Positions 12,435 to 39,779 of a stretch of 40,360 nucleotides of DNA are shown one piece after another (position 1 is the stretch's first letter; each line of letters opens with the position of its first letter). This DNA is from Chloroflexota bacterium. Lineage in GTDB: Bacteria; Chloroflexota; Anaerolineae; Anaerolineales; VGOW01. The translations under genes were made by a program, and so were the position numbers. The stretch lies in assembly GCA_016875735.1 (NCBI GenBank), contig VGOW01000033.1:1-40360 (forward strand), read 5' to 3'. The notes below the pieces were generated by a model. That model searched no databases and was not told the origin of the DNA. It saw only the letters and a list, made by a program, of their open reading frames with translations.

Positions 12435-12513
12435 GAATGCGGAAGGATGAATGCAGAATGCGGAATACAGATTCGCAATTCATCATTCCGCATTCCACAT
12501 TCCGCATTTCACA
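12435..12513. repeat. Heptad inverted element B, abutting the rsmI start codon
   Basis: Left arm of five phased 7-mers from 12435 (GAATGCG, GAAGGAT, GAATGCA, GAATGCG, GAATACA). Core GATTCGCAA. Right arm of five phased 7-mers (TTCATCA, TTCCGCA, TTCCACA, TTCCGCA, TTTCACA) ending at 12513; the rsmI ATG is at 12514. The arms are near-complementary. No ribosome-binding site remains between element and gene. Confidence 0.9.
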
Positions 12514-15102: not shown

Positions 15103-15895
15103 ACTTTCTCTGGAACACGAGCCGCACTGCTCCGGCATACGATTCATTTTCGACATCGGCGCAGGTGGGGGCGGCAATGCCGGTGACGGGCGGCGTGCGA
15201 CTGCCCACTTGCGCGTTGTACATCACGCCCACCATCATCAGGAAATCACCGTAGCTCGAACTGATCTCCGGCTTGAGGCCGGTCACGAATCCATCTTCGC
15301 CCTCGCCCCACGTCACCGTCACGCGAACGCCGGGCAGGGGCGAGCCGTCGGCGTCGATCACATCGACGATGATGAGCGGCAGTCGCTCGGCATCGTTGCA
15401 ATACGGTTCGCGGGTGATCAGTGTGTAATCGTACCCGGGCGTTGCGGTGGGTGTGAGGGTGGGGAACGTTGTGAGGCTGGGCGCGGCAAGAGGAGTGGGC
15501 GGCGGGGTGGATGTTTCGGTGGGAAGCGGAACGGGCGTGGAGGCCGGACTCTCGGAGGCGCTTGCCACTGGCTGGACGCCGCCACTCAAATCGGCGGCCA
15601 AGGCCGCCAAGGCCGAGGCGTCTTTTCCTTCGGCGGCCATTCTCTGCGCAAGGGCGGTGATCGTTTGAGTCGAATCGGGATCACGCAGAGCGGCGAGTCG
15701 CTCGCGAGCGCGGTCGAGGTTTCCGTCGGCTTGGTAGGCCGAGGCGACGAGGAGGAGATATTGCTCGCGGTAATCGGCGCGAAGCGAGGAAGGATCGGTG
15801 TCGGTGTATTTGACCGGGCTGATGGCCCAGCCGTAGAGGAGGCCGAGGGCGATGCCGAGAATGATTCCGAGAATGATGAGGGAGGGGCGGATCAC
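15101..15895 (-). CDS. Membrane-anchored protein with helical N-domain and surface C-domain
   Basis: 264 residues. A membrane segment at about 3-24 (RPSLIILGIILGIALGLLYGW) is followed by a helical repeat-like stretch (SLRADYREQYLLLVASAYQADGNLDRARERL) resembling a TPR pair. Next comes a Pro/Thr linker at about 110-155, then a domain of about 110 residues (LPLIIVDVIDADGSPLPGVRVTVTW) with a carboxypeptidase-regulatory/Ig-like look. GTG start at 15895 with no ribosome site. The first 100 residues are clearly paralogous to the next gene upstream. Function unknown; probably cell-surface. Confidence 0.75.
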   Translation of the reverse strand: MIRPSLIILGIILGIALGLLYGWAISPVKYTDTDPSSLRADYREQYLLLVASAYQADGNLDRARERLAALRDPDSTQTITALAQRMAAEGKDASALAALAADLSGGVQPVASASESPASTPVPLPTETSTPPPTPLAAPSLTTFPTLTPTATPGYDYTLITREPYCNDAERLPLIIVDVIDADGSPLPGVRVTVTWGEGEDGFVTGLKPEISSSYGDFLMMVGVMYNAQVGSRTPPVTGIAAPTCADVENESYAGAVRLVFQRK

Positions 15896-15902
15896 GGGGA
15901 TG

Positions 15903-15983
15903 GGTGGTTGGGTGGTTAGGTGGTTAGGTGGTTGGGTTTGAGGTTTGAGGTTTGAGGTTTGGAGTTTGGAGTTTGATGTTTGC
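15903..15983. repeat. Tandem element E with an 8-to-7 period switch
   Basis: Four phased 8-mers (GGTGGTTG, GGTGGTTA, GGTGGTTA, GGTGGTTG, 15903-15934) pass without a break into seven phased 7-mers (GGTTTGA three times, GGTTTGG, AGTTTGG, AGTTTGA, TGTTTGC, 15935-15983). No inverted arm. It fills the whole gap between two paralogous minus-strand genes. Confidence 0.9.
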
Positions 15984-15985
15984 GT

Positions 15986-16339
15986 TTACCGCGGCAGCGG
16001 TGGGGGGACTGCGCCGAGGGCGGCGGCGAGCGCGGAAAGAGCGCGGAGGTCGTCGAGCGCCGCGCCGCGCTGGATTTGGGCGGCGGCAAGATCGGCGACG
16101 TGCTGGCCGGGATCGACGAGGTTGAGGGTGGCGAGTCGGGCGCGGGCCAGATCGAGATCACCGTCGGTGCTATAGGCTTGGGCGATCATCACCACGTAAT
16201 CGGCTTGGTAATCGGCGCGGAGAGAGTCGGGCGCGGTGTCGGTGTATTTCACCGGGTTGATCTGCCAGCTGTAGATCAGGCCGAGGGCAATGCCGAGGAT
16301 GGCTCCGGCGATGAAGTTGAACAGCGCTGTGCGAGTCAT
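15986..16339 (-). CDS. Short paralogue of the downstream anchored protein
   Basis: 117 residues: membrane segment at about 6-24 (FNFIAGAILGIALGLIYSW), then NPVKYTDTAPDSLRADYQADYVVMIAQAYSTDGDLDLARARL. That aligns closely with the N-terminal part of the 264-residue neighbour (SPVKYTDTDPSSLRADYREQY...). It ends in a short Pro-rich tail where the neighbour continues into linker and surface domain. A tandem duplication with loss or gain of the C-domain fits. The gene starts right after the tRNA-Leu terminator and has no clear ribosome site. Confidence 0.7.
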   Translation of the reverse strand: MTRTALFNFIAGAILGIALGLIYSWQINPVKYTDTAPDSLRADYQADYVVMIAQAYSTDGDLDLARARLATLNLVDPGQHVADLAAAQIQRGAALDDLRALSALAAALGAVPPPLPR

Positions 16340-18490: not shown

Positions 18491-20254
18491 ATGCCCTATC
18501 AACAAACTCGTTGGAAACTCGATGCGCTCGTTCCCGCCGAGGAAGGCGCAAAAGAGAAAGCGCTGAAGACTCTCGAAAGCAAAATCAAAAAGGCCGAGCG
18601 CTGGCGCAAGCAACTCAAGCCTTCCATGCCGGTCAAAACATTTCTGACTGTGCTGAAGGATTTCGAGGCCATGAACGCCGAAAGCCACAGAATCGGCGCC
18701 TACGCTGCGCTCCTGTTCTACGCCGACACGCAGAATCAGGATGCGCTGGCGATGTTCGGCAAAGTTCAGCAGCTGTTGGCCGAAGCAGAGAATCGCACGC
18801 TGTTCTTCTCGCTGTGGTGGAAGTCGCTCAACGACAAACAGGCGGCCCGGCTCATCAAAGAGTCGGGCGACCTGCGCTATTGGCTGGAGAGCATTCGGCG
18901 CTTCAAGCCGCACACGCTCTCCGAGCCGGAAGAGAAAGTGATCAATCTCAAAGACACCACCGGCTTCCGCGCCCTCGACACGCTGTACGACATGATCACC
19001 AGCAAGCTCACCTTCACGCTCGAAGTGGACGGCGAGAAGAAAACGCTGACCGAAGACGCGCTGATGGTTTACGTGCGCGACCCGCGGCCCGAAGTGCGCG
19101 CGGCGGCTTATCAAGAACGCTTGCGGGTTTACGCCGAGAGCGCCACACTGCTTTCGCACATCTACGGCACGATGATGCGCGACTGGCGCAACGAGAACGT
19201 CACCCTGCGCAAATATACCAACCCCATCGCCGTCCGCAATCTCGGAAATGACCTGCCCGATAAAGTGGTGGACACCCTGCTCAACGTCATCCGCGACAAC
19301 GCCGGAGTGTTCCAGCGCTACTTCAGACTCAAAGCCAAATGGATCGGCATGGGCAAACTACGGCGCTACGATATTTACGCGCCGCTCGCCGGAGCCGAGA
19401 AGCAGTACGACTACGACGCCGCCGTGAGCATGACGCTCGACGCCTTCAACTCATTCTCGCCGCGTGTGGGCGCGTTGGCCAAGCAGGTGTTCGACGACGG
19501 GCACGTGGACTCGGAAGTGCGGCAAGGCAAACGCGGCGGCGCATTTTGCTACAGCGTTCTGCCGGGGCAGTCGCCGTTTGTTCTGCTCAATTACAACGGG
19601 CGCGCGCGCGATGTGGCCACCATGGCGCACGAGATGGGGCACGCCATTCATGCCCTGCTCGCCGCCGATCACTCGGCGCTCACTTTTCACTCCGCCCTGC
19701 CGATGGCGGAGACCGCCTCCGTGTTCTCCGAAATGGCGCTGACCGAGAAACTGCTGGCGCAGGAAACCGATCGCGCCGTGCGCCGCGACTTGCTGGCGGC
19801 GGCGCTCGATGACGCTTACGCCACCGTGGGGCGGCAAGGCTTCTTTGCCCTGTGGGAAAAGGAAGCGCACGAGATGGTGAAGGCGGGCAAGACCGCCGAC
19901 GAAATGGCGGCCCGTTATCTCGAAACACTCCACGAACAGTTCGGCGACGCAGTGGAAGTGAGCGAAGATTTCAAGTGGGAATGGATTCACATCCCGCACT
20001 TTTACGGCACGCCCTTCTACGTGTACGCCTATTCATTCGGCCAACTGCTGGTGCTGGCGCTTTACCAAATGTATCGAAGGGAAGGCGAAACGTTCAAGCC
20101 GAAGTATCTCAAAATTTTAGAATACGGCGGCTCGGAGTCGCCGATGCGGATTCTGAAAGAGGCCGGCATCGACATCGCCTCGGCCAAGTTCTGGCAGGGC
20201 GGCTTCGAGGTGATCCATGGAATGATTGATGAGTTAGAAAAAATGGAGGGGTAA
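18491..20254 (+). CDS. pepF: M3-family oligoendopeptidase F
   Basis: 587 residues, the usual PepF size. Zinc site MAHEMGHAIH with His380, Glu381 and His384; the third ligand glutamate is in AETASVFSEMA at about 407-414. The helical M3_N domain occupies the first 200 residues, and YDIYAPL, FCYSVLPGQSPFVLLNYNG and WIHIPHFYGTPFYVYAYSFGQLL are characteristic. It is a cytosolic metallopeptidase that trims oligopeptides. No signal peptide. The 5' side is entirely repeat element F, with no Shine-Dalgarno sequence visible. Confidence 0.95.
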   Translation: MPYQQTRWKLDALVPAEEGAKEKALKTLESKIKKAERWRKQLKPSMPVKTFLTVLKDFEAMNAESHRIGAYAALLFYADTQNQDALAMFGKVQQLLAEAENRTLFFSLWWKSLNDKQAARLIKESGDLRYWLESIRRFKPHTLSEPEEKVINLKDTTGFRALDTLYDMITSKLTFTLEVDGEKKTLTEDALMVYVRDPRPEVRAAAYQERLRVYAESATLLSHIYGTMMRDWRNENVTLRKYTNPIAVRNLGNDLPDKVVDTLLNVIRDNAGVFQRYFRLKAKWIGMGKLRRYDIYAPLAGAEKQYDYDAAVSMTLDAFNSFSPRVGALAKQVFDDGHVDSEVRQGKRGGAFCYSVLPGQSPFVLLNYNGRARDVATMAHEMGHAIHALLAADHSALTFHSALPMAETASVFSEMALTEKLLAQETDRAVRRDLLAAALDDAYATVGRQGFFALWEKEAHEMVKAGKTADEMAARYLETLHEQFGDAVEVSEDFKWEWIHIPHFYGTPFYVYAYSFGQLLVLALYQMYRREGETFKPKYLKILEYGGSESPMRILKEAGIDIASAKFWQGGFEVIHGMIDELEKMEG

Positions 20255-20336
20255 CTTCCAACCTCAAACTCCAAACTTCCAAGAGAGCCTCCAACGCATC
20301 GAAGGCTCTTTTTGGAATTCGAAGTTTGGAGTTCAC
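20253..20336. repeat. Heptad element G with bidirectional terminator core
   Basis: Left arm: AACTTCC, AACCTCA, AACTCCA, AACTTCC, AAGAGAG from 20253, including the last bases of the peptidase stop. Core hairpin AGAGCC (20284-20289) with GGCTCT (20304-20309) followed by T5, a plausible terminator. Right arm AGTTTGG, AGTTCAC (20323-20336) reaches into the htpG stop. It separates two convergent genes. Confidence 0.85.
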
Positions 20337-32646: not shown

Positions 32647-35160
32647 ATGCCTCTCCCTTCCCACACCTCCATCACCATCATCGGCGGGGGGATCGCCGGA
32701 TGCAGTATTGCCTATTGGCTCGCTCGACTCGGGCGCCGGGATGTGCTGCTGCTCGACAAAGGCGAGCTGACCAGCGGAAGCACATGGCACGCCGCCGGTC
32801 TGCTCACTCACTTTCACACCTCGCCCGCGCTGATGCGAATGCGCAAACACAGCATCGCCCTCTACCGCGATCTGCAACACGAAGCGGCCGCGAGCGGTCG
32901 GCATCACATCGGCTGGAACGAGGTGGGTAGTTTGCGCGTGGCTTCGAGCCGCAACCAATTTATGTTTTTGCAGAGGCAGGTGAGCATGGCCAAAGCCATC
33001 GGCCTCAACGTGGAAATTATTTCGCCCGCCGAAGCGATGAAGATTTTCCCGCACATGTCGAATAAAGAGTTGTACGGCGCGATCTATTTGCCGAACGACG
33101 GGCACGTCGATCCGAACGGGGTGACGATGGAGATCGCCCGCCGGGCGCGGGAGATGGGTGTGACGATTTCCACCGCGACGCGGGTGACGGGCATCGAGCG
33201 CGGATCGCGCGGGGAAGTCGTCGGCGTCCAAACCGAACACGGTTCCATCCGAACCGAGATCGTGATCAACGCCGCCGGGATGTGGGGGCAACAAGTCGGC
33301 GCGATGGTTGGCGTCAATCTCCCCATGACTCCGCTCGTCCATCAACACGTCGCCACCAAACCAATCCCCAATTACCAATTACCCAAACACACTCCCTGCC
33401 TCCGCGACCCCGAATATCTTTTTTACATGCGCGAGGAACAGGGCGGCTTTCTCATCGGCGGGTTCGAGGAAGAGCCGGTGGCCTGGTCGGTGGGCGGCGT
33501 GCCGTGGGACTTCACCGGCAAACTGCTTGCGCCCGATTGGGAATTGTTCGCGCCGATCATGGAAGGCGCGATCCGCCGCATTCCGATTCTTGAGAAGGCG
33601 GAGTTGACGCACCTCGTGAACGGGCCGGAGTCGATCACGCCCGACTCGCGCCCGTTGTTGGGGCCCCTGCCCGGCGTGCCGGGCTTTTGGGCCGCCTGCG
33701 GACTCTCGCACACCGGCTTCGGCGCGGGCGCGGCCATCGGCGAGATCATTGCCCATTGGATCGTGAACGGCGAGCCGCCCTACGATGTGACCGAGATGAA
33801 TGCGCGCCGCTTCGGGCCGAACATGGAAGATCGCGCCTACGCCGCCGAGCGCGCGCGAGAGTCGTACCGCTACTATTACGTGTTGCGCTACCCGCACGAT
33901 GAAAACGAGTGGGCGCGGCCTCGACGACTCAGCCCATTGCATACGCGCTGTGAAAAACTTGGCGCGGCCTTCGGCGAGAAGAACGGCTGGGAGCGGGTGA
34001 ACTTTTTCGAGCCGGGCTCGACCGGGCGGCGGATGGGCGCGGAACAAAAGCGATGGGGATGGGGGCGGCCTCCGTTTTTTGATCGCGTGGGCGAGGAGCA
34101 CCGCGCGGCGCGCGAGCGAGTCGCGATCTGGGATATGACCTCGTTCGGAAAGATTGATGTGAAGGGCGCGGGCGCGTTGGCTCTGCTTCAACAGTTGTGC
34201 GACAACGATGTGGACAAGCCGGTGGGCAGTGTGACATACACGCAGTTCCTCAATGAGCGCGGCGGCATCGAAAGCGATGTGACCGTTGCGCGAGTGGGCG
34301 AGGATCATTTCCGCGTGATCACTGGCAGCAATTTTGTGGCCGGCGATTTGGGATGGATTCGGATGCGCGTGGGGGCGGATGGCCATCCGCCCCCGCAAGT
34401 TTGGGACGTGACCGACGAATGGGCGGCGATTGGGCTGTGGGGGCCGCGCGCGCGCGATGTGTTGGCGGCGGTGACGGACGCCGACGTGTCGAATGGCGGC
34501 TTCCCGTACATGACGGCGAAATGGATCCGAATCGGCGGCGCAGAAGTGTGGGCGCAGAAAGTCACGTATGTCGGCGAATTAGGCTGGGAGTTGTATATCC
34601 GCAACGACGACGCGGGCGCGGTGTGGGACGCGCTGATGGAGGCGGGCCGCCCGCATGGCATCACGCCCGCCGGATACAAATCGCTCGACTCACTGCGGCT
34701 CGAAAAAGGCTATCGCTATTGGAGCAGTGACATCACCCCGAGCGAGACTCCGTACGAGGCCGGGCTGGGCTTCTGCGTGAAGTTGGGCAAAGGCAATTTC
34801 AATGGAAGAGAGGCGTTGGTGAAGTTGAGAGAGAGCGGGGTGAAGAGGAAGTTGCGCACGGTGACCCCCACCCCGAACCCCTCCCCCGTTGGTGACTTCG
34901 CCAACGGGGGAGGGACAAGGTCGGGGGTCGGGGTGATCTACGGCGGCGAGGCGGTGTATGCCAACGGCGAGATCATTGGCCGACTGCGGTCGGCGGGCTA
35001 CGGCTACACCGTCGGCAAATGGATCGGTTACCTCTATTTGCCGCTGGAGTTGTCGAAAGAAGGCACGCCGCTCGAAGTGGAAGTGTTTGGCGAACGAGTG
35101 AGCGCAACGGTGGCAGCGGCTGTGTTGTACGACCCGAAAGGGGAGAGGGTGAAATCGTAA
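32647..35160 (+). CDS. FAD-dependent sarcosine/dimethylglycine dehydrogenase-like protein (DAO-GcvT fusion)
   Basis: 837 residues. The FAD domain opens with IIGGGIAGCSIAYWLARLG (about 11-29) and LLDKGELTSGSTWHAAGLLTHF, where the His would be the covalent-flavin-type position. The DAO substrate domain runs to about 380 (GPESITPDSRPLLGP). Then an FAO_M segment and a GcvT folate domain (about 430-720: WDMTSFGKIDVKGAGALALLQQLCDND, PYEAGLGFCVKLGKG), and a GcvT C-terminal barrel (from about 765). The enzyme would demethylate dimethylglycine or sarcosine, passing one carbon to tetrahydrofolate. Two low-complexity repeat elements are read through in frame at about residues 239-248 and 739-763. Confidence 0.92.
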   Translation: MPLPSHTSITIIGGGIAGCSIAYWLARLGRRDVLLLDKGELTSGSTWHAAGLLTHFHTSPALMRMRKHSIALYRDLQHEAAASGRHHIGWNEVGSLRVASSRNQFMFLQRQVSMAKAIGLNVEIISPAEAMKIFPHMSNKELYGAIYLPNDGHVDPNGVTMEIARRAREMGVTISTATRVTGIERGSRGEVVGVQTEHGSIRTEIVINAAGMWGQQVGAMVGVNLPMTPLVHQHVATKPIPNYQLPKHTPCLRDPEYLFYMREEQGGFLIGGFEEEPVAWSVGGVPWDFTGKLLAPDWELFAPIMEGAIRRIPILEKAELTHLVNGPESITPDSRPLLGPLPGVPGFWAACGLSHTGFGAGAAIGEIIAHWIVNGEPPYDVTEMNARRFGPNMEDRAYAAERARESYRYYYVLRYPHDENEWARPRRLSPLHTRCEKLGAAFGEKNGWERVNFFEPGSTGRRMGAEQKRWGWGRPPFFDRVGEEHRAARERVAIWDMTSFGKIDVKGAGALALLQQLCDNDVDKPVGSVTYTQFLNERGGIESDVTVARVGEDHFRVITGSNFVAGDLGWIRMRVGADGHPPPQVWDVTDEWAAIGLWGPRARDVLAAVTDADVSNGGFPYMTAKWIRIGGAEVWAQKVTYVGELGWELYIRNDDAGAVWDALMEAGRPHGITPAGYKSLDSLRLEKGYRYWSSDITPSETPYEAGLGFCVKLGKGNFNGREALVKLRESGVKRKLRTVTPTPNPSPVGDFANGGGTRSGVGVIYGGEAVYANGEIIGRLRSAGYGYTVGKWIGYLYLPLELSKEGTPLEVEVFGERVSATVAAAVLYDPKGERVKS
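33361..33388. repeat. In-frame heptad run I inside the dehydrogenase gene
   Basis: CCAATCC, CCAATTA, CCAATTA, CCCAAAC in exact 7-base phase. It is the inverse of the TTGGTAA unit in element F. It encodes PIPNYQLPKH between HQHVATK and the conserved LRDPEYLFYMREE, where relatives as I recall them have a short variable loop. Confidence 0.75.
34862..34935. repeat. In-frame palindromic element J inside the dehydrogenase gene
   Basis: Left arm of C-rich units (34864-34892), a 8-base core around TGACTTCG, right arm (34901-34934) that is its near-inverse; CCCCCGTTGG / CCAACGGGGG is perfect. It encodes TPTPNPSPVGDFANGGGTR, a stretch foreign to the GcvT fold, placed between RKLRTV and VIYGGEAVYANGEIIG. 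The length is a multiple of three with no stops, so the protein continues normally. Confidence 0.9.
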
Positions 35161-38865: not shown

Positions 38866-38902
38866 TCAGGATCGGCGTCGTCGAAACATGGCGATTGCAT
38901 AT

Positions 38903-38973
38903 CACCACAGAGAACACAAAGGGCACAGAGATTCTAAAAATCTTTCTCTGTGTTCTCGGTGTTCTCTGTGGTG
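38903..38973. repeat. Inverted element K supplying the C-terminus of TrmI
   Basis: Perfect 15-bp arms CACCACAGAGAACAC (38903-38917) and GTGTTCTCTGTGGTG (38959-38973), with ACAGAGA/TCTCTGT units between. On the minus strand the right arm is read as LTTENTENTEKDF, the last residues of TrmI, after a normal family end. Confidence 0.9.
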
Positions 38974-39779
38974 AGTTCCTTGGTGATTTCTTCCGGCTGT
39001 TCGCGCGCCGAGGGGATGACCGGGCGGGCAAACACAAGATAGCCCGTGTGCGCCACCATTCGATCCACCGGCCTCAAACGGGCGGGCACGGTTTTGTAGT
39101 TGCGCACGAAAATTTCGATCACTTCATGTAACACAAACCATTCGCGCTGAAGCGAGGTGAGCAGATCGGAAACTTGGTTGACGGTGGGAACGAGGCAGCC
39201 GAAGTGGCCGCCCCCCCTCAGCGCCCGATGCGTTTGCGAGCAATAGTCGTAGGGGTTCGGCACGTCGAGAAAAAACGCTTCCGCGTCCGTTTCGTCGAAG
39301 CCCTCTTTGATGTCGCGCAGTTTGAACGTCACGCGGTCGAGCAGCCCGGCGAGTTCGAGATTGCGGCGGGCGATGTTCTGCATGTCGGGGCGCACGTCGT
39401 AGGAGATCACGCGCCCGGTGGGGCCAACGGCGTTGGCGAGGGCGAGGGTGAGGCCGCCGCTGCCGGTTCCGGCTTCCAACACTATCATGCCGGGCCGCAC
39501 GTTGAGTTTCATCAAAATGAAGCCGAGGTCTTTCGGGAAAAGAATCTGCGATTGCCGTTTGGCTTCGACGATAAGATCGTGAATGGATGGCGCAAGCAGA
39601 TAGAACGGCCTGCCGAGATGGGTGAGGATTTTGGATCCGTAGGGAACGCCGATGAGGTTGTCGTGCATGAGCACGCCGCGGTGCGTTTCCAACCGGCCCC
39701 CCGGCGCGAGCCGGACGAGGAAGTAGCGCCCGTCGGAATCCATAATTTGAGCCAGATCATTAGTGGAGGCATTAATCAT
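38934..39779 (-). CDS. trmI: tRNA (adenine(58)-N1)-methyltransferase TrmI
   Basis: 281 residues. A short N-terminal beta domain (FLVRLAPGGRLETHRG...GSKILTHLGRPFYLL), then a Rossmann SAM domain: motif I VLEAGTGSGGLTLALANAVG (about 97-116), RVISYDVRPDM, and motif IV EAFFLDVPNPYDY (about 162-174). It makes m1A58 in the T loop of tRNAs. Start ATG 39779 is seven bases after TATAAT, so the message is probably leaderless. The last 13 or so residues are read from repeat element K and are not part of the fold. Confidence 0.93.
   Translation of the reverse strand: MINASTNDLAQIMDSDGRYFLVRLAPGGRLETHRGVLMHDNLIGVPYGSKILTHLGRPFYLLAPSIHDLIVEAKRQSQILFPKDLGFILMKLNVRPGMIVLEAGTGSGGLTLALANAVGPTGRVISYDVRPDMQNIARRNLELAGLLDRVTFKLRDIKEGFDETDAEAFFLDVPNPYDYCSQTHRALRGGGHFGCLVPTVNQVSDLLTSLQREWFVLHEVIEIFVRNYKTVPARLRPVDRMVAHTGYLVFARPVIPSAREQPEEITKELTTENTENTEKDF

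Follow-up and report, generated by a model that had tools for sequence, protein, structure and literature searches.

The palindrome lodged in a dehydrogenase gene of a Chloroflexota bacterium, represented by a MAG of Anaerolineae type, is very probably one copy of a family of short (about 50-75 bp), non-autonomous hairpin repeats, whose copies within coding regions would have survived in frame and in loops through purifying selection. The window, which is the whole stretch of 40,360 nucleotides that was analysed, belongs to a genome of 4.15 Mb distributed in 150 contigs (G000), and the host gene occupies positions 32647-35160 of its forward strand. As indicated by its open reading frame, Pfam and structure matches, this gene encodes a protein of 837 residues similar to DMGDH and sarcosine dehydrogenase, where the Pfam domains DAO, FAO_M, GCV_T and GCV_T_C follow each other in a DMGDH-like order and with a DMGDH-like fold. 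Among solved structures, the closest ones are those of dimethylglycine dehydrogenases (4p9s and 4pab_B), with an E value of 1.5e-158 for the rat enzyme 4p9s (phmmer) and a Z score of 48.5 for 4pab_B (rmsd of 2.8 over 789 aligned residues).

The whole hairpin repeat, delimited by its palindromy, its folding and related copies elsewhere in the genome, spans positions 34862-34936 and is composed of a C-rich outer arm, a core hairpin and a G-rich outer arm (TGACCCCCACCCC ... GGGGTGA). This imperfect palindrome folds as single-stranded DNA with -34.8 kcal/mol, compared with -23.8 ± 2.7 kcal/mol for dinucleotide shuffles (z = -4.06), and none of the 200 shuffles folded as well. The core hairpin of 36 bases (CCCTCCCCCGTTGGTGACTTCGCCAACGGGGGAGGG, 34879-34914) is built on a stem formed by CCCTCCCCCGTTGGTGA (34879-34895) and TCGCCAACGGGGGAGGG (34898-34914), with a complementarity of 94%, the inner part of which covaries between copies. 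On the minus strand, a layout scan with a shuffled-flank control revealed at 34865-34914 the succession of a C-block, an 18-nt hairpin loop, a G-block, GTTC and a second G-rich block, a relaxed version of the intrastrand-triplex motif (TM) as defined in PMC4666352. The palindrome is in frame within an intact open reading frame, and both its position and the residues that it encodes, 740-762, had been correctly given by an initial sequence-only reading. Translation and alignment with homologues assign to the element 23 codons of the forward strand (34864-34932), corresponding to T740-G762, which read TPTPNPSPVGDFANGGGTRSGVG.

In the AlphaFold model of the host protein (mean pLDDT 78, pTM 0.81, built with 20 sequences), the insert lies in the turn that joins strands 734-741 and 769-772 in the C-terminal barrel, and pLDDT falls below 50 at its residues 752-760. 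According to this model, the insert occupies a disordered turn or loop. Its residues probably lengthen that loop in a neutral way and without an ordered structure. When the whole gene is compared with its closest orthologue, which is found in a species of the same genus (G002, 83% protein identity), values of dN 0.118 and dS 0.916 are obtained (dN/dS of about 0.13), whereas the region 3′ of the insert gives dN 0.172 and dS 1.429 (dN/dS 0.12). These pairwise figures, which carry no date relative to the insertion, indicate that purifying selection acts on the host gene at both sides of the insert, and the enzyme with its insert probably still works. Three residues N-terminal of the insert, a Cys to Arg change is observed at residue 737 (codon CGC, 34855-34857), where the window protein has Arg (KLR) and nearly all close homologues have Cys (KLC).

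A close-up view of the insertion site shows that the G002 orthologue reads KLCTV-IMNGGV-VIYGG and the window protein KLRTV-(23)-VIYGG, with 6-8 residues of the native loop missing from the latter at the insert. The element had been credited with adding about 23 residues and, in fact, 23 are encoded, but the net gain with respect to homologues is 15-17, because native loop codons are missing. Among the 29 closest homologues in the order, the alignment places an insert at this site only in G006, a member of another family of the order; since the homologues are without it, the insert is lineage-specific, in agreement with what the sequence-only reading had anticipated. The G006 insert (locus L032) reads ILTPGPSPKGRGRE (LTPGPSPKGRG), in the same register and the same phase as the one of the window, and its DNA is also palindromic (CCCTCTCCC-AAA-GGGAGAGGG). 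It was the only similar case, and no homologue was found carrying the same residues on DNA that is not palindromic. Both inserts may derive from one old event, later lost in G002, or from two separate events, and the sequences fit either possibility. A shared old insertion of this kind would also suit the idea that the enzyme family inherited a longer loop at this place from its ancestor, palindromic by chance, and that no mobile or copied repeat is involved. We consider this idea very unlikely in view of the about 60 related copies present in unrelated genes and intergenic sites of G000 and, G006 apart, of the lack of the insert in every homologue of the order-wide set. A different insert, an array of 73 residues made of PSPRRRGVGGEV units, occupies the same spot in L093, from a Chloroflexi MAG that is more distant. 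Homologues L091 and L093, both from Chloroflexota MAGs, contain in-frame repeat-like inserts at sites about 81, 458, 579 and 744, with the sequences (NETAG)n, PQRSDRAEGNAAA, QGTSRQGTSR and the 73-residue PSPRRRG array.

The dispersed family to which we ascribe the window element was surveyed with the pattern CCCTCYCC-N8-38-GGRGAGGG, using as a control the same pattern read backwards. The genome G000 has 59 pattern sites against 6 of the control, related copies being also recovered by BLAST, and 12 to 39 sites against 0 to 2 are found in sister genomes of this genus, the sister species G002 having 39 against 0. The 36-base core is the same in two intergenic copies, and several members of the family are double hairpins. 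Comparison between copies revealed Watson-Crick pairing of 83% at five inner positions of the stem, while a control with the 3′ halves reshuffled among copies reached a mean pairing of 45% and a maximum of 61%; the mean number of inner pairs out of 5 was 4.4 for intragenic and 4.0 for intergenic copies. Altogether, the family is dispersed, and compensatory differences between its copies preserve the pairing of the inner stem. Searches in Rfam (E up to 1) gave no family at gathering score for the element, with sub-threshold, chance-like hairpin matches only, and a literature search on coding palindromes in Chloroflexi, covering few subscription journals, retrieved no paper on this hairpin family.

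The flanks of 51 copies were scored with a codon model trained on the G000 genome, in a survey that rests on the strict core pattern and the codon-usage score and that demanded an open frame. In 16 of these copies, located in 15 genes, both flanks are coding in one frame, which is open through the element; this count leaves aside two copies, one in an ORF of 29 residues and the other N-terminal in an ORF of 159 residues. The genes concerned include MnmA, an Elp3-like protein, an ABC-F ATPase, a class I methyltransferase and a ThiP-like permease, as well as a macro domain protein, glycosyltransferases and DNA methylases (Eco57I-type among them). For MnmA, the macro domain and the Eco57I methylase, the Pfam match encloses the element; in the other host genes tested by orthologue alignment, the element corresponds to an insertion or a variable loop. 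All three reading phases are used by the copies within genes, so that no particular peptide is conserved. The sister species G002 adds seven more internal in-frame copies and one at an N-terminus.

Two paralogous DNA methylases (L137 and L146; G000 C39 and C2) have in-frame hairpins at about the same place, single in one and double in the other, and an Eco57I-type methylase (L138; G000 C43) has two adjacent in-frame hairpins directly before its NPPY motif, with a third similar peptide (TPTPTLPHPKNADGGGSWEGV) upstream of both. Moreover, at L132 (G000 C36), a DUF559 protein and an HsdM-like methylase have C-terminal tails supplied by copies of the element (APSPLSRCASPSGEGAGGEG and LTPGPSPDDKKQMRRRERGEGGEG, respectively). 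An assembly artefact was considered as the origin of the inserts and rejected, given that 15 genes are affected and that the independent genomes of sister species behave likewise.

On the other hand, ten copies have flanks coding on one strand but in different frames, and two more have flanks in one frame with the element closed. Different Pfam domains are found at either side of the element in seven loci (L120, L124, L126, L130, L132, L133 and L144), three others give the same picture when their proteins are read (L123, L136 and L151), and in the last two one flank is without a family (L122 and L156). Among the different-frame and closed copies checked, none was found to interrupt a conserved gene, a contrast of 15 genes to none that in part reflects the poor visibility of broken genes. 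As broken genes are hard to see and vanish, a formal P value is not relied on. Intergenic copies have an open frame with a probability of 0.68, and therefore a random insertion in a coding region would be in frame and open with a probability of about 0.23. The preservation of frame expected from the single case of the window is thus seen at the genomic scale, whereas the proposal that insertion length or frame is selected stands in part: frame is kept, but this is best read as survivorship under purifying selection, because each of the three phases is used by some of the elements.

The same copies bear on whether the hairpin could be skipped at the RNA or the translation level, either by an intron-like removal or by ribosome bypassing, to give a protein without the insert. 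Hairpin elements are bypassed in yeast mitochondria, the hairpin of the window is a strong one, and a GC-rich hairpin in the mRNA could stall ribosomes. If skipping took place, frame and internal stops would not matter, yet the copies within genes are open and in frame, as seen in a search that demanded an open frame and with a check of the out-of-frame class that disclosed no split gene. With the Rfam result, where no family reached its gathering score, skipping appears to us extremely unlikely.

The comparison originally made with the Rickettsia palindromic elements (RPEs) is apt, since it is the same phenomenon, as is also the case of intragenic REPs. RPEs are AT-rich. They are palindromic repeats that occur both in intergenic regions and in frame within unrelated protein genes (Ogata et al. 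2000, reviewed in PMC2229807 and PMC10969869), and the window family resembles them in its intergenic and in-frame copies, the latter in many unrelated genes with conserved host proteins. As a functional class the likeness holds in G000, where a dispersed multi-copy palindromic family is present and in-frame copies are found in several unrelated conserved genes and absent from their homologues. RPEs differ in their length of about 150 bp (PMC10969869) and their unrelated sequence, against a family of about 50-75 bp where three phases are used. Moreover, the RPE sequences of R. conorii reportedly end in CGTC (PMC3733652), a tag absent from the ends of the window element (TGACCCCCACCCC and GGGGTGA). 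The tetranucleotide GTAG is likewise absent at the hairpin end from the window copy and the other copies inspected, and is present in a separate repeat of G001, G002 and G003. Having no GTAG or CGTC tag, the window element falls outside the RPE and GTAG sequence families and would be, at most, a variant of the triplex motif.

Many genera have been reported to have REPs inside genes, and Chloroflexi to have GTAG repeats (Di Nocera et al. 2013, PMC3733652). In that work, insertions in flexible linkers or loops were regarded as possibly neutral, and two Xanthomonas species were found to have different REPs at about the same site of recB (PMC3733652). Intragenic GTAG/CGTC REPs are similar to the window family as short hairpins that occur as singles and dimers, encode 20-30 residues and lie in genes of known function, but the arms of the window element are C-rich and G-rich blocks and its ends are untagged. 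The description of such inserts as unusual outside Rickettsia is overstated, because intragenic palindromic repeats have been published for several other genera (PMC3733652, PMC2229807) and the sister species also carry in-frame copies of unrelated repeat families. The Coxiella QMITE and the enterobacterial RU/ERIC in-frame MITEs (PMC5896051, PMC2759123) are, in the same way, short non-autonomous repeats fused in frame, but they are longer, have other sequences and, unlike the window element, several of their fusions are at gene ends.

In its sequence, the element is close to the intrastrand-triplex motif TM_ECO or PIT, CCCTCNCCC-N3-6-GGGNGAGGG-N3-GGGNGAGGG (Holder et al. 2015, PMC4666352). 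The window arms CCCTCCCCC (34879-34887) and GGGGGAGGG (34906-34914) match its first two blocks exactly, whereas the first loop has 18 nt and its own covarying stem, the second loop has 4 nt, and the third block is GGGGTGGGGG. The strict motif with one mismatch allowed occurs in 2 of the 51 copies, the window copy not fitting it, while the relaxed layout with a second G-rich block occurs in 23 of 51 compared with 0.34 expected with shuffled flanks. TM_ECO has been reported as always intergenic in E. coli MG1655 (PMC4666352), in contrast to about a third of the examined G000 copies, which are coding. This abundance of triplex-like layouts, the covariation of the stem and the pairing of intragenic copies, as good as that of intergenic ones, are features that an element with a selected function in place might show, either as a regulatory mRNA hairpin, as triplex-forming DNA or through a useful peptide. 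However, the spread mechanism itself can yield covariation, and the copies are in unrelated host genes and in three phases, are absent from close orthologues and are replaced by unrelated repeats in sister species, which make a selected function unlikely.

In this regard, the same loops of several proteins carry different repeats across the genus. The dehydrogenase orthologues of G002 and G003 (L031 and L042) have an in-frame GTAG-type palindrome, GTAGGGGCGATTCATGAATCGCCC, at about residue 631, which in G003 takes the form of a tandem array, (AIHESPVP)n. For the family of this palindrome, 17 to 26 pattern sites were counted in each of three genus members, against 0 for the control. Both L031 and L042 also hold an 8-residue insert, GSTGSPC, at about residue 716. 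The MnmA loop contains the C-rich hairpin in G000, the GTAG-type palindrome in G001 and a GDAPA tandem array in G003, and the ThiP loop contains the C-rich hairpin in G000 and a GTCATTGCGAGG-type repeat in G001, presumably a CGTC-type REP. The G001 ThiP-like permease (L182) has an in-frame loop repeat, GTCATTGCGAGGAGCG...GAAGCAATCTC, which resembles a dimer of CGTC-type REPs. In the Elp3 loop, related C-rich hairpins are found in G000 and G002, in different phases and with an identical 5′ junction, and G003 and G004 hold remnants related to them; the junction common to two species fits an old insertion remodelled later as well as a repeated insertion. More generally, repeats in the same loops are compatible either with several insertions into loops that tolerate them or with exchange between copies that reshaped an old insertion. 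We suggest, as a plausible proposal that still falls somewhat short of probable, that in this genus permissive enzyme loops are repeatedly overwritten in frame by unrelated palindromic repeats, among which we count C-rich triplex-like hairpins, GTAG REPs, CGTC-type REPs and short tandem arrays. Such a turnover would be a main source of change in loop length between closely related species, and gene conversion may exchange the inner hairpins of existing copies, which would account for different phases at one junction.

For the favoured reading of the window element, as a member of a non-autonomous family shaped by survival, the following steps can be envisaged. Hairpin copies would spread or be copied into new places, selection would remove most coding insertions, including the out-of-frame and core ones, and the surviving copies would keep frame and fall in exposed loops, one arm or part of the native loop codons often having been lost. 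The likeliest guess for the mover, and a quite tentative one, is a transposase of the Y1/RAYT type with the hairpin in single-stranded form as its substrate; the main alternative would be that one existing copy serves as template for another, through template switching or gene conversion. Four Y1_Tnp matches are present in the genome, three without a C-rich copy within 1.5 kb and the fourth with loose matches nearby, and the strict pattern found no GTAG-tagged repeat beside the Y1 genes. No family copy was caught moving, neither between-strain insertion polymorphism nor a clean target-site duplication being observed.

Other repeats are found in the window. A second imperfect palindrome, made of ATTCCGCATT / AATGCGGAAT units, lies at 12435-12513, and a 30-base inverted repeat (TCACCACAGAGAACACAAAGGGCACAGAGA) with a 13-base spacer and 87% complementarity is located at 38902-38974. 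Short TTTGGAGTTTGGAGTT-type repeats, partly inverted relative to each other, occur at 15937-15990 and 20250-20333, and a 108-base direct repeat with 80% identity is found at 15769-15876 and 16207-16314, 438 bases apart.

Beyond the single site of the window, the chief interest lies in the fact that, across a genus, the same loops of orthologous housekeeping proteins are occupied by palindromic repeats unrelated to each other. Protein-coding palindromes are extended in this way to Chloroflexota MAGs, and with an element of the triplex-motif type that had been reported as intergenic in E. coli. For annotators, peptides such as TPNPSPxG...GGG should be taken as translated repeat DNA and not as domains. 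As sister species differ in the repeats that occupy a given loop of orthologous proteins, the genus is a natural test set for the effects of repeat insertions on proteins, for the decay or replacement of the inserts, and for the question of whether survivorship alone accounts for the keeping of frame.
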